Below are positions 5,721 through 18,169 of a DNA stretch of 64,000 nucleotides, one piece after another. Numbering within the stretch: position 1 is the stretch's first letter; each line of letters starts with the position of its first letter. The notes beneath the pieces were generated by a model, which saw nothing but the letters and a program-made list of their open reading frames with translations, ran no database searches and was not told the origin of the DNA. The translations under genes were made by a program, and so were the position numbers. Origin of the DNA: a bacterium (lineage in GTDB: Bacteria; Fidelibacterota; Marinisomatia; Marinisomatales; UBA1611); contig SGYO01000001.1 of assembly GCA_004321745.1 (NCBI GenBank), forward strand, positions 62,001 to 126,000, read 5' to 3'.

Positions 5721-7862
5721 TTAACTTTTTTTACCAGCAAGGTCCAATAAAAAAGCATATTCTAAAGCAACTTCTTTATAAATCCTAAATCGCCCTGATT
5801 TACCACCATGCCCTGCATCCATGTTCATATGAATGTATAATTTATTATCGCCCTGCCAATGATCTCTTAATTTGGCAACATATTTCAATGGCTCCCAATA
5901 TTGGACTTGAGAGTCAAAAAACCCTGATGTAACTAAAATGTTAGGATATGTTTTATCTTCAATTTGATCATACGGAGAATAAGACAACATATAATCATAA
6001 TATTCTTTTTCTCTGGGATCACCCCATTCATCCCACTCATTCGATGTAAGAGGTATTGATGGATCAAGCATTGTGGTAACGACATCAACAAAAGGAACTG
6101 CTGAAATTGCGCCTTTCCAAAGATCTGGCTTCATATTAATTACTGCGCTGATCAAAAGGCCTCCGGCACTTCCTCCTGAACAGAATAATTGATCTGAGCT
6201 AGTATATCTTTCATTGACCAAATATTTGCCAGCATCGATGAAATCATAAAAAGTATTTTTCTTTTTTAATAGCTTCCCATCCTCGTATGACTTGCGACCG
6301 AATATTTGGCTACCTCTAACATTTGTTAACGCATAAATGAAACCTCGATCTAATAAACTTAATCTAGTAGAACTAAAATACGGGTCTGATGTAGAACCAT
6401 ATGAACCATAGGAGTAGAGTAAAAGTGGCTGAGGCTCATTAATTCTCATATCTTTACGAAATACTAGATAAATTGGTATTTTTTCACCATCTCTCGATGT
6501 AGCATATACAGTTTCTGCATCATATAAATCTTTGTCGTACCCTTTCCCAATAACCTCCGTTTGTTTCAGAAGGGTCTTTTCTTTTGTTTCCATATTATAA
6601 TCATAAACAGAAGAAGGTGTCAGCATTGAAGAATAGCCATATCGTAAAATATTAGTATTATATTCCTCATTGGTAGAGATGTAAGCAGAATAAGTTTTTT
6701 CTTCAAAATCAATGTAGCTATCATCTCCAGAGGACATATTCTTTATTCTAATTGCTCGAAGTCCATCTTTCCTTTCACTTAAGACTAAATAATTTTTGAA
6801 TATTTCTAGCCCTAAAAGGTGAACTTCATCACGATGAGGTATTACCTCCTCCCAATTTGATAGCTCAGTTTGATTTACTTTTGTACGCATTAAACGGTTA
6901 TTTGGAGAGTTTTTATTTGATATTATATAAAAATAATCCTCATAATGCTGGATATCGTACTCATGCTTTTCCCCCCGAGGCGAAAAATTTATAAATTTAC
7001 CATCTGGCTCATTGGCATCTAAAATATGATAATCACTAACTAGAGTACTACTATTATATATGATAATATATTGCCCTGATTTAGATCTGTAAACTCCATT
7101 ATAATAGGTTTCATCTTTCTCATGGTATACTAATTGATCTTGGTCAGAATGAGTTGAAAGTTTGTGCTTATATATTTTTTCTCCTAGTAATGTGACTTTA
7201 TTTTTTAAGGTATAAAAGACAGTTTCATTATCATTAGCCCAGGCAACACCACCTGTAGTATTTGAAATTGTATGTTCTAAATTTTCTCCGGAAATTAAAT
7301 TCTTAAAGTGTACTTTGTAAAACCTGCGGCTTAAGGTGTCTACACCGTATGCAAGCAATTTATTGTCAGGACTAATGGACATACCACCTATGGCAAAATA
7401 ATCATACCCCTCTGCTAAAACATTCACATCAAGAATGATCTGTTCATCATTATTTAAATTTTTATATTTTCTACAGTATATAGGGTATTCCTTTTTGTCT
7501 TCATATCTAACATAATAATAATACCCGTTTTCTAGGTATGGTACAGACTGATCATCTTTTTTAATTCGTCCGACCATCTCATCATATAAAGCTTTTTGCA
7601 GTGGTTTTGTATGCTTTAAACTCTTATTTAGATATTCTGTTTCATCATCAATATAATTGATAACATCCTGAGTCTGTGAATCATATTTTTTTGCTGATTT
7701 TTGCTCATCGGTTAAGCGCATCCAATAATAATTATCAGTCCTAACATGGTCATGCGTTTTGATCTCCTTAGGAATCTTTTTTACATCAGGGGGAGTAGAA
7801 TTTGTCGAGCATGAGGCCATAATTACGATTATCAGTGATATGTATAATTTAAAAGTCTGCAA
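5721..7862 (-). CDS. Oligopeptidase B-like S9A serine peptidase, probable lipoprotein
   Basis: A prolyl oligopeptidase-family protein of 713 residues from the TTG start at 7862. An open frame extends upstream into the tRNA-Asn gene, so longer starts are implausible. From TTG the N-terminus is a short basic and hydrophobic stretch ending IMASC, a passable lipobox. The ATG at 7820 would begin at MASC and lose the signal. The propeller region (residues about 70-420) carries N-terminal motifs of the family such as YYWMRL. The hydrolase domain has SGGSAGG (nucleophile), an acidic residue in SGFFDSQV and His in DAGHGG, the arrangement of PtrB. It probably cleaves short peptides, perhaps after basic residues, in the periplasm. 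Confidence 0.88.
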   Translation of the reverse strand: MQTFKLYISLIIVIMASCSTNSTPPDVKKIPKEIKTHDHVRTDNYYWMRLTDEQKSAKKYDSQTQDVINYIDDETEYLNKSLKHTKPLQKALYDEMVGRIKKDDQSVPYLENGYYYYVRYEDKKEYPIYCRKYKNLNNDEQIILDVNVLAEGYDYFAIGGMSISPDNKLLAYGVDTLSRRFYKVHFKNLISGENLEHTISNTTGGVAWANDNETVFYTLKNKVTLLGEKIYKHKLSTHSDQDQLVYHEKDETYYNGVYRSKSGQYIIIYNSSTLVSDYHILDANEPDGKFINFSPRGEKHEYDIQHYEDYFYIISNKNSPNNRLMRTKVNQTELSNWEEVIPHRDEVHLLGLEIFKNYLVLSERKDGLRAIRIKNMSSGDDSYIDFEEKTYSAYISTNEEYNTNILRYGYSSMLTPSSVYDYNMETKEKTLLKQTEVIGKGYDKDLYDAETVYATSRDGEKIPIYLVFRKDMRINEPQPLLLYSYGSYGSTSDPYFSSTRLSLLDRGFIYALTNVRGSQIFGRKSYEDGKLLKKKNTFYDFIDAGKYLVNERYTSSDQLFCSGGSAGGLLISAVINMKPDLWKGAISAVPFVDVVTTMLDPSIPLTSNEWDEWGDPREKEYYDYMLSYSPYDQIEDKTYPNILVTSGFFDSQVQYWEPLKYVAKLRDHWQGDNKLYIHMNMDAGHGGKSGRFRIYKEVALEYAFLLDLAGKKS

Positions 7863-7879
7863 ATGAGCAATTAAAAAAG

Positions 7880-7952
7880 CTCCGGAGGAGGGACTCGAAC
7901 CCCCGACAAAGTGGTTAACAGCCACCTGCTCTACCAACTGAGCTACTCCGGA
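7880..7952 (-). tRNA. tRNA-Asn (anticodon GTT)
   Basis: Read on the minus strand, the 73 bases fold as a full cloverleaf. The acceptor TCCGGAG pairs with CTCCGGA, the D arm contains AGCTCAGTTGGTAGAGC, the anticodon loop is CTGTTAA with GTT, and the T arm has TTCGAGT between GGGGG and CCCTC. The discriminator base is G, as in asparagine tRNAs. CCA is not encoded. A T6 run follows immediately and may help end transcription. The next gene (S9A peptidase) begins within 20 bases. Confidence 0.97.
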
Positions 7953-16559: not shown

Positions 16560-17036
16560 TCAAGGTAATTTATCTGGAATTTTAATCTGAGACCATTTCA
16601 TCCTATCATCATTAGATATTACCATATCATGAACAACCTGAATCCCTCTCTTTTGCCCATTCCAAACTAAATGAGATAAAGCGACATCCAACTTAACCCA
16701 TTTAAAATCACAATGTTCTTTTGATAAAACTACTTCTTGGGAATCAACTTCAATTCCAAAAACTGGAACAAGATTTAATCTATCACCATGCTTTTCATAA
16801 AAACTACTAACATGATCAGCTATAAATACCTTCAGTGGCCTTAAGCTAGTTTCTTCCCCTAGCTCCCTGATTGCTGCCTCCCATGCTTTTTCTCCCTCTT
16901 CAATTTTTCCTGCAACCCCTTGCCAAAGGTGCTCATATATTTTGGTTTTTGCCCGTTTCAATATAAGAAACTCAATTCCTTCTATTGTTTTTCTATAGAC
17001 ATAAGCATCTACAACTCGTACCTTTATTTTTGTCAT
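16560..17036 (-). CDS. Nudix hydrolase
   Basis: A 158-residue protein with the Nudix box at residues 43-65: GKIEEGEKAWEAAIREL followed by GEET, giving G-x5-E-x7-R-E-U-x-E-E, with Ser at the usual second glycine. The glutamates would bind Mg2+ to hydrolyse a nucleoside diphosphate linked to another group. Overall it resembles dihydroneopterin-triphosphate/dATP pyrophosphohydrolases, but the substrate is uncertain. It overlaps the tgt stop by one base and is last in the radA-tgt-Nudix run, followed by a strong terminator. Confidence 0.9.
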   Translation of the reverse strand: MTKIKVRVVDAYVYRKTIEGIEFLILKRAKTKIYEHLWQGVAGKIEEGEKAWEAAIRELGEETSLRPLKVFIADHVSSFYEKHGDRLNLVPVFGIEVDSQEVVLSKEHCDFKWVKLDVALSHLVWNGQKRGIQVVHDMVISNDDRMKWSQIKIPDKLP

Positions 17037-18169
17037 TACATGCCTCTATGATACTTCATTTCATTTAACCAACTAGTAGACCAACTATCAAACTCGCCAA
17101 GGTGAATCACCTCTTGGATTTTTTTAATTAAAGAAATGTAAAATGATAAGTTCAATGTTGATGCAATTCGCAAACCTAGTATTTCTTTAACACCAAAAAG
17201 ATGTCTTATATACGCTTTAGTAAACATACGCCCAAAAGCATGATTACTATTCTCATCTATAAAGGAGTGATCATCTTTATATTTCTCATTTGTAATATTT
17301 ATTGTCCCATTAGATGTAAAGATCTGGCCATTTCTACCATTTCTGGTTGGCATAACACAATCAAACATGTCAACTCCACGCCGTATTGCTTTAACTATGT
17401 CAGTAGGTCTTCCAACCCCCATCAGATATCTAGGTCTATCTTTTGGTAGTAACGAATCACAAAATTCTATAGTCTCAAACATAGCGTTTTTCTCTTCTCC
17501 AACTGCAAGGCCTCCAATCGCTATCCCGAAATCTGCCTGTGGGACTAATCCTTCGATACTCATTTCTCTCATTTTATGATTAATACCACCTTGAATAATT
17601 GGAAATAACGTTTGGCTATGTTTATAGAGACGGGGATTATCTTTTAGATAGTTTTTACACCTTATAAACCATTCATTAGTTCTTTTAACAGCTTTGGTAA
17701 CTTCATCTAATTCTGATTTACCAGGAGGACAATGATCAAATGCCATAATAATATCTGACCCCAAAGCGCGCTGAATTTGCATCGATATTTCAGGTGTTAT
17801 AGTATGATAACTCCCATCTAGGTGAGATTGAAACTCCACACCATCATCATTAATCTTATTTAAATTTGCTAAAGAAAATACCTGAAACCCTCCACTATCT
17901 GTTAAAATAGGTCTTGTCCAATTTGAAAATTTGTGAAGACCGCCTGCATGATTTATTACTTCTGTCCCTGGCCTTAGATAAAGATGATATGTATTGCCTA
18001 AAATTATATCTGCCCCTAATCCTTCAAGCTCATGTGGAGAAAATGTTTTTACAGCACCAATGGTCCCAACAGGCATAAATACTGGGGTTTGAATATCTCC
18101 ATGTTCGGTTTTTATTAATCCAGTTCTGGCAGAGGTCTTTTTATCTTGCGTGGTAATTGAAAAATTCAA
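17036..18169 (-). CDS. tgt: tRNA-guanine(34) transglycosylase lacking the zinc site
   Basis: A 377-residue enzyme that swaps guanine-34 for preQ1 in GUN-anticodon tRNAs during queuosine synthesis. Catalytic blocks are intact: LTDSGGFQVFSL, MAFDHCPPG, IQGGI, GGLAVGE and the nucleophile region MFDCVMPTRNGRNG. The C-terminal zinc site is lost. Where the family has C-x-C-x2-C, this protein has Ser308, His310 and Gly313, and the fourth ligand His is Leu339 (in ASTLNLSFY). The surrounding structure (AYIRHL, EILGLRIAS) is conserved. It overlaps radA by 4 bases and Nudix by one. Confidence 0.93.
   Translation of the reverse strand: MNFSITTQDKKTSARTGLIKTEHGDIQTPVFMPVGTIGAVKTFSPHELEGLGADIILGNTYHLYLRPGTEVINHAGGLHKFSNWTRPILTDSGGFQVFSLANLNKINDDGVEFQSHLDGSYHTITPEISMQIQRALGSDIIMAFDHCPPGKSELDEVTKAVKRTNEWFIRCKNYLKDNPRLYKHSQTLFPIIQGGINHKMREMSIEGLVPQADFGIAIGGLAVGEEKNAMFETIEFCDSLLPKDRPRYLMGVGRPTDIVKAIRRGVDMFDCVMPTRNGRNGQIFTSNGTINITNEKYKDDHSFIDENSNHAFGRMFTKAYIRHLFGVKEILGLRIASTLNLSFYISLIKKIQEVIHLGEFDSWSTSWLNEMKYHRGM

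Follow-up and report, generated by a model that had tools for sequence, protein, structure and literature searches.

The tgt gene of the window, by which we mean the whole 64,000-nucleotide stretch of DNA analysed here, encodes a tRNA-guanine(34) transglycosylase (TGT) in which none of the four ligands of the zinc site is kept. Alignment with relatives confirms that the loss is real and that the protein is, as judged from its sequence, a zinc-free variant. As conserved catalytic columns and a predicted TGT fold suggest, the window Tgt is very probably a working queuosine enzyme, which inserts preQ1 into tRNAs with GUN anticodons and in which protein packing would replace the zinc knot. The features on which the analysis draws are as follows:

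16560–17036, minus strand: NUDIX hydrolase gene, directly downstream of tgt, with a one-base overlap
17036–18169, minus strand: tgt, tRNA-guanine(34) transglycosylase, zinc-free variant, 377 aa; open reading frame with a TTG start, matched by TIGR00430 and Pfam TGT
17153–17155, minus strand: codon 339 (Leu), in alignments the place of the fourth ligand, His, of zinc TGTs
17165–17167, minus strand: codon 335 (Ile); most zinc TGTs have Leu here, and each of the three zinc-free groups has mostly Ile
17216–17218, minus strand: codon 318 (Lys); most zinc TGTs have Arg here, and each of the three zinc-free groups has mostly Lys
17231–17248, minus strand: codons 308–313 (S-N-H-A-F-G), in alignments the place of C-x-C-x2-C in zinc TGTs, with codon places counted from the start of the reading frame; Phe312 within it is, by alignment, the recurrent hydrophobic or aromatic replacement
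17360–17362, minus strand: codon 270 (Asp), conserved, equivalent to the catalytic nucleophile Asp280 of Z. mobilis TGT (role as given in PMC4425180)
17897–17899, minus strand: codon 91 (Asp), conserved, equivalent to the general acid/base Asp102 of Z. mobilis TGT (role from the same source, PMC4425180)
18166–19533, minus strand: radA/sms, upstream, with a 4-base overlap with the tgt start; its zinc ribbon CxxC...CxxC is intact
7879–7952, minus strand: tRNA-Asn (GTT), a tRNA of a kind that TGT normally modifies at G34

Loss of the Zinc Site in the Window Tgt

The window Tgt scores 466.8 bits against the TIGR00430 equivalog profile (cut-off 306.75 bits, residues 4–372) and 468.1 bits against Pfam TGT. 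Because it passes the NCBIfam cut-off without a Cys3His site, it is a Tgt by sequence and not a zinc TGT. In the alignment with relatives, the columns of the zinc ligands are occupied by Ser308, His310, Gly313, and Leu339, the same columns and the same numbering as in the original prediction, which had held all four ligands to be replaced. That prediction had also named two findings that would speak against it, Cys ligands that are present but shifted and a second canonical tgt in the genome, and neither was found. The ligands are not shifted, since the only Cys residues of the protein are at 147, 171, 237, and 271, and the stretch from 295 to 345 has none; the genome (1.75 Mb, 92% complete, 40 contigs) contains a single TGT match.

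Elsewhere in the window, an Rfam scan of its whole length returned nothing beyond the tRNA. The NUDIX gene at 16560–17036 gives its top score as a dihydroneopterin triphosphate diphosphatase, below the cut-off (45 vs 103 bits). A prolyl oligopeptidase gene (open reading frame 5721–7937) probably starts further in than listed, because tRNA-Asn overlaps the listed start on the same strand.

Fold, Catalytic Residues, and Queuosine Pathway

The catalytic motifs are kept, as had been claimed, and so are the residues of the motif that binds tRNA: D91, D145, C147, Q193, G219-G220, and D270 are all conserved, and we take D145, C147, Q193, and G219-G220 to be residues of the substrate pocket. Positions 91, 145, 147, 193, 219, 220, 248, 250, 270, and 279 are invariant in every readable one of 154 zinc-free rows; column 276 holds one His among these 154, and column 95 is Phe or Tyr in zinc and zinc-free rows alike. 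The AlphaFold model of the window Tgt (mean pLDDT 93.2, pTM 0.92, block means 96–98 over residues 301–330) has a (beta/alpha)8 barrel with a C-terminal subdomain, and TGT entry 7apl, presumably the Z. mobilis enzyme, comes structurally closest to it (Z 51.5, rmsd 1.6 Å over 370 residues). The matches among 50 listed TGT entries span Z 50.5–51.5 and rmsd 1.4–1.7 Å at 44–46% identity. A kept fold is to be expected here, since AlphaFold was fed relatives of both zinc and zinc-free kinds and is blind to metal. Identity to 27 zinc relatives of the order is 44% in the C-terminal subdomain and 63% in the rest of the protein, so that tRNA or dimer behavior may differ.

Of 41 relatives, 37 have QueA and 18 have a strong QueC match, the window's own genome being included in both counts (QueC at G000:C36:10587-11231). 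An active queuosine enzyme is the best reading of the conserved catalytic columns, the predicted TGT fold, the presence of queA and queC, and tRNA-Asn(GTT), taken together; the purified protein would be expected to carry no zinc and to be active.

The distribution of QueC is uneven. Strong matches occur in 14 of 25 genomes of the window's own family (f1) and also in families f6, f9, f14, and f15; ten other families of the order have none in 12 genomes, though QueA is present in 12/12 and TGT in 11/12, and these QueC-less genomes may salvage preQ0 or preQ1. One genome (G033, family f10, 99% complete) has QueA, which depends on the TGT product, yet gave no TGT match.

Distribution of Zinc-Free TGTs in the Phylum

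Besides f1, families f9, f14, and f15 are relevant here as members of the same order and f16, f17, and f18 as members of the same class. We surveyed the phylum with one (first-copy) TGT per genome in 117 genomes. In f1, 23 TGT sequences extend as far as the site; none has any of the three Cys, and 22 of them have a readable residue other than His at 339 (G006 has X). The alignment with related genomes that was originally proposed thus shows a clade-wide loss, and a frame or sequencing error is rejected because the site is missing family-wide. The earlier view of a stable zinc-free variant and a lineage trait is well supported by the alignments, the class tree, and this loss across the whole family. 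A 24th f1 TGT (genome G013) ends before the zinc site, and three incomplete f1 bins (G004, G005, and G022) gave no TGT match.

Zinc-free TGTs also account for every sequence read in f9 (2/2), f14 (1/1), f15 (9/9), f16 (5/5), and f17 (4/4). The complete set of ligands (CCCH) is present in 73/73 first-copy TGTs of the other families read, f18 among them, and ten families of the window's order (f2–f8 and f11–f13) keep it; f10 gave no TGT match. The order yielded 35 zinc-free TGT sequences. All of them are free of Cys from residue 295 to 345, and none keeps any of the three Cys or has His at a readable 339. Outside the 117-genome count are nine second or odd copies (eight CCCH and one Bacteroidota-like, L187) and the truncated L036.

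Among these extra copies, L182–L186 and L201–L203 are second TGTs of f21 genomes and one f26 genome, with PTRY in place of PTRN as the tRNA-contact motif and all zinc ligands kept. L187 (G119:C177) is a zinc-free TGT of Bacteroidota type in an f21 bin that holds two other TGT matches, and it is probably contamination. One f15 genome (G167, 81% complete) gave no TGT match.

Zinc-Free TGTs in Bacteroidota

A scan of named genomes with a zinc-free C-terminal profile kept 80 loci, of which 77 are of Bacteroidota type. More than one of the three Cys is present in 0/77 of these, in a scan that is by design biased toward zinc-free forms. A separate draw from Bacteroidota (the phylum of L049) found TGT in 117 of 118 genomes; of 50 TGTs read, 17 have CCCH and 33 lack the set, a biased frequency because the 50 comprise the 30 best-scoring and 20 hand-picked sequences, mostly from the low end. 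The 77-locus and 50-locus sets may overlap. The original statement that bacterial and eukaryotic TGTs normally bind zinc at this site must therefore be narrowed, since it fails for many Bacteroidota.

Like the window Tgt, many Bacteroidota TGTs have lost the site, with shifts at 312, 318, and 335. They differ from it in forming a separate clade on the tree, in still having His or Gln at 339, and in having mostly Val at 312 instead of an aromatic residue; unlike f1, they include sequences that keep CCCH (the 17 of 50 above). One Bacteroidota-type TGT (L065) is filed under a bin labeled Comamonas sp. lk, and that record is probably misnamed.

Number of Independent Losses

A 119-row TGT tree was built with the ligand columns removed (26 handles skipped, L036 and L037 left out, and 18 of the 77 Bacteroidota-type rows used), and on it the zinc state changes four times, at least three of these changes being forced by starred branches. 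The class tree of 53 chosen TGT rows has three changes of zinc state: f1+f9+f14 (support 100/96), f15, and f16+f17. A single clade of f1+f9+f14+f15 is compatible with the data (AU p 0.495). Zinc is probably the ancestral state, since it is present in Z. mobilis, in human, and in most TGTs of the phylum. Taking it as such, we infer from the sequences that the site was lost two or more times in the phylum and once or more in Bacteroidota.

A single zinc-free origin within the phylum was also considered; it is rejected by the one-clade constraint (AU p 0.003).

Residue Changes That Accompany the Loss

To describe what else changes, columns were compared between three zinc-free groups and their zinc relatives and ranked by the second-largest of the three divergences. 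The top five columns are the three Cys, 335, and 312. Of 377 columns, only 318 and 335 have a majority residue that is common to the four zinc groups and a different one common to the three zinc-free groups (Arg to Lys at 318 and Leu to Ile at 335), and of ten columns with disjoint majorities, seven lie within residues 304–335. Position 312 is Phe, Trp, or Tyr in 35/35 order-level zinc-free rows, Met in 6/9 rows of f16 and f17, and Val in 71/110 Bacteroidota-type rows, with Thr or Leu as the majority in zinc rows. At 339, the zinc-free rows of the order have Leu, Ile, Thr, or Met (one X); His339 is retained in 7/9 rows of f16 and f17 and in 81/110 Bacteroidota-type rows, 23/110 of which have a lone Cys at 310 or 313. 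Alignment A1 covers 14 of 24 zinc-free rows and alignment A2 has 53 chosen rows; the putative compensating changes are alignment correlations among rows that share ancestry within each group.

We take the zinc ligands of Z. mobilis TGT to be residues 318, 320, 323, and 349, and the resulting offset of +10 makes position 335 Leu345 and position 318 Arg328 of that enzyme. Both equivalents lie near the dimer hot spot, which comprises Trp326, Tyr330, His333, and Phe92 according to PMC5395182. The window Tgt has F81, F316, Y320, and H323 at the hot-spot positions, and Y320 and H323 are invariant in A2. The alignments suggest that residue 312, together with 335 and 339, would fill the space of the zinc and its ligands; such packing could hold the C-terminal subdomain in place, with homodimer formation and tRNA binding still possible.

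Zinc State of Other Proteins in the Same Lineages

The window's own genome combines a zinc-free TGT with zinc-free L31, S14, and L33 and a Cys-type L36. In f1, L31 has the long type-B form in 24/24 genomes with a match, and the 17 of these whose sequences were read have no Cys pairs. The long type-B form is also found in f15 and f6, and all 14 other relatives, each read, have the short form with Cys pairs. In the phylum draws, where L31 and S14 types were assigned by match length, the long L31 occurs in 25 of 141 (22 in zinc-free-TGT families, the others in f6 and two f8 genomes) and the zinc-free length of S14 in 16 of 136, all in zinc-free-TGT families; six of ten f1 genomes have the zinc length of S14. 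Sequences of S14, found in 12 of the 13 stretches read, are zinc-free in the window's own genome, G009, f14, and f15 and of Cys type in eight others. Of 29 L36 sequences read (from 30 loci), only that of an f15 genome (G038) lacks the zinc residues, and the other 28 keep them. L33 was read at 19 of 30 loci and is zinc-free in 14 of the 19; many zinc-TGT families share the zinc-free form with f1, so L33 does not discriminate. The type-B length, again taken from match length, applies to 22 of 23 L31 matches in genomes of Bacteroidota type. Cys motifs are intact in the window's RadA and LigA and in the QueC of 12 relatives, that of QueC being presumably a zinc site. The f15 genomes, at 0.7–1.0 Mb, are the smallest of the order, and they have zinc-free TGT, L31, and S14 (and L36 in G038).

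Counted by genome, zinc-free L31 occurs in 32/42 zinc-free-TGT genomes vs 3/72 zinc-TGT genomes and zinc-free S14 in 14/28 vs 0/67, counts that are not independent, given shared ancestry. Three independent TGT contrasts give a median sign-test p of 0.5 (G001, G002, and G018 being left out of the tree), and with only three the test is unable to reach 0.05. In the reverse direction, five independent pairs have unlike L31 types, and on average only 0.5 of the five also have unlike TGT states, a result that agrees equally well with L31 changes occurring within a given TGT state and with the absence of any link.

Alternative Explanations

The greater divergence of the C-terminal subdomain might point to a decaying or inactive TGT relative, a pseudo-enzyme or pseudogene, yet the frame is intact, the catalytic columns are conserved in the readable zinc-free rows, and no other TGT was found in the genome, which has queA and queC, so that we regard this as highly improbable. 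Nor do we expect a different metal or a different set of ligands at the site: His310 is present in 19/35 order-level zinc-free rows, but the other 16 have Ile, Ser, Asn, or Val there, and Cys is absent from 295–345 and His from every readable 339 in the 35 rows, which makes this reading very unlikely. Horizontal acquisition of the zinc-free gene from Bacteroidota is suggested by the profile scan of named genomes, in which the best matches outside the phylum are Bacteroidota. On the TGT trees made without ligand columns, however, the window Tgt stands beside zinc TGTs of its own order and apart from Bacteroidota, and the sole Bacteroidota-like copy in the phylum (L187 in G119), which does group with Bacteroidota, looks like contamination; such a transfer is scarcely credible.

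Two accounts of why zinc was given up deserve closer weighing. Neutral replacement, in which a hydrophobic 312 and the changes at 335 and 318 stabilized the knot, the metal was no longer needed, and the ligands then changed by drift, zinc saving bringing no advantage, has in our judgment a little short of an even chance of being right. It agrees with the nearby zinc proteins that keep their motifs, with the site remnants that piecemeal decay would leave (the retained His339 of f16/f17 and Bacteroidota-type rows and the lone Cys of the latter), and with an L31 state that does not track TGT in f9, f14, f16, f17, f6, and part of f8. Against it, zinc-free L31 and S14 cluster in the same lineages more than neutral replacement needs, and the window's order has no intermediate, its zinc-free rows lacking both Cys and any readable His339. 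That clustering is what a zinc economy would predict, with structural zinc removed stepwise from the translation apparatus in zinc-poor sea water and TGT usually first, an account that we consider possible while leaning against it. It also draws on the L36 without zinc residues in the f15 genome read, in a family with genomes of 0.7–1.0 Mb, on the type-B L31 length of nearly all Bacteroidota-type matches, and on Table 2 of PMC3087516, where Bacteroidetes are zinc-free for seven of eight such proteins. Working against it are the three independent contrasts, L31-differing pairs that mostly show no TGT difference, and genomes that combine a zinc-free TGT with a zinc-type L31 (f9, f14, 4/5 of f16, 3/3 typed of f17, and Rhodothermales G190, by length) or, in reverse, a zinc TGT with a zinc-free L31 (f6 and two f8 genomes). 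No strict order of loss is seen, because f14 combines a zinc-free S14 with a zinc-type L31; L33 is zinc-free in zinc-TGT families too, and RadA, LigA, and QueC keep their zinc motifs. Z. mobilis, whose TGT keeps its Cys, is an alphaproteobacterium. Alphaproteobacteria are almost all zinc-free in these ribosomal proteins, according to PMC3087516, so zinc-free ribosomal proteins and zinc-free TGT are not bound together.

Adaptation to low zinc, raised in the original prediction, is thus only suggested: the co-occurrence of zinc-free L31 and S14 favors it, and the zinc motifs kept nearby, with about three independent contrasts, do not. The host probably belongs to Candidatus Neomarinimicrobiota (SAR406), a marine, mostly pelagic group. 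Our widest proposal is tentative and, as a whole, rather doubtful: zinc-free TGT would be a recurrent enzyme type with a convergent plug (hydrophobic 312, Ile335, and Lys318) and, in SAR406, would usually open a stepwise loss of structural zinc from the proteins of translation, with L31 or S14 next, in either order, and then L36, as in the single f15 genome (a very small one) whose L36 was read.

Comparison with Known Systems

The window Tgt shares its fold, the catalytic Asp pair, and the dimer hot-spot positions with the zinc TGT of Z. mobilis (1PUD and 1OZM) and with entry 10fb. The zinc region was compared in three solved TGT sequences; the Z. mobilis enzyme and 10fb have C-x-C-x2-C in the aligned stretch and bind zinc, whereas the window Tgt lacks all four ligands. 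Entry 10fb is the solved sequence nearest to a Bacteroidota TGT, and its Cys triad is present. Human QTRT1 and mouse QTRT2 belong to the same superfamily as the window Tgt, and the catalytic residues are conserved in QTRT1; both proteins retain the zinc domain (PMC6165067), in contrast to the window Tgt, which has no zinc ligands. The same source describes the zinc domain as one of two TGT hallmarks, conserved from bacteria to eukaryotes (PMC6165067), and according to PMC4425180 both human TGT subunits keep the zinc residues.

Another likeness is to the zinc-free (C−) forms of ribosomal L31, S14, L33, and L36, which, according to PMC3087516, have likewise lost a structural zinc site lineage-wide in a protein of translation. 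Those C− proteins are distinct gene forms, some of them zinc-switched, whereas Tgt is an enzyme with one gene copy that itself changed, and no zinc form was found to accompany it. Among the matches listed in a search of open-licence literature, no paper on a zinc-free TGT was found; the sequences were made public years ago, so that the variant may have been noticed before by others.

Implications

The Cys3His hallmark holds for the solved TGTs whose zinc region was compared here or is described in the papers cited, and the window Tgt departs from it; work that assumes the TGT zinc site would need correcting for many Bacteroidota. Natural zinc-free TGTs, zinc-binding sister enzymes, and a few changes in common make a clean system for studying how a metal site is replaced by protein. 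The same system suits the questions of whether the zinc site is needed for dimerization or tRNA binding and whether open-ocean bacteria economize on zinc.
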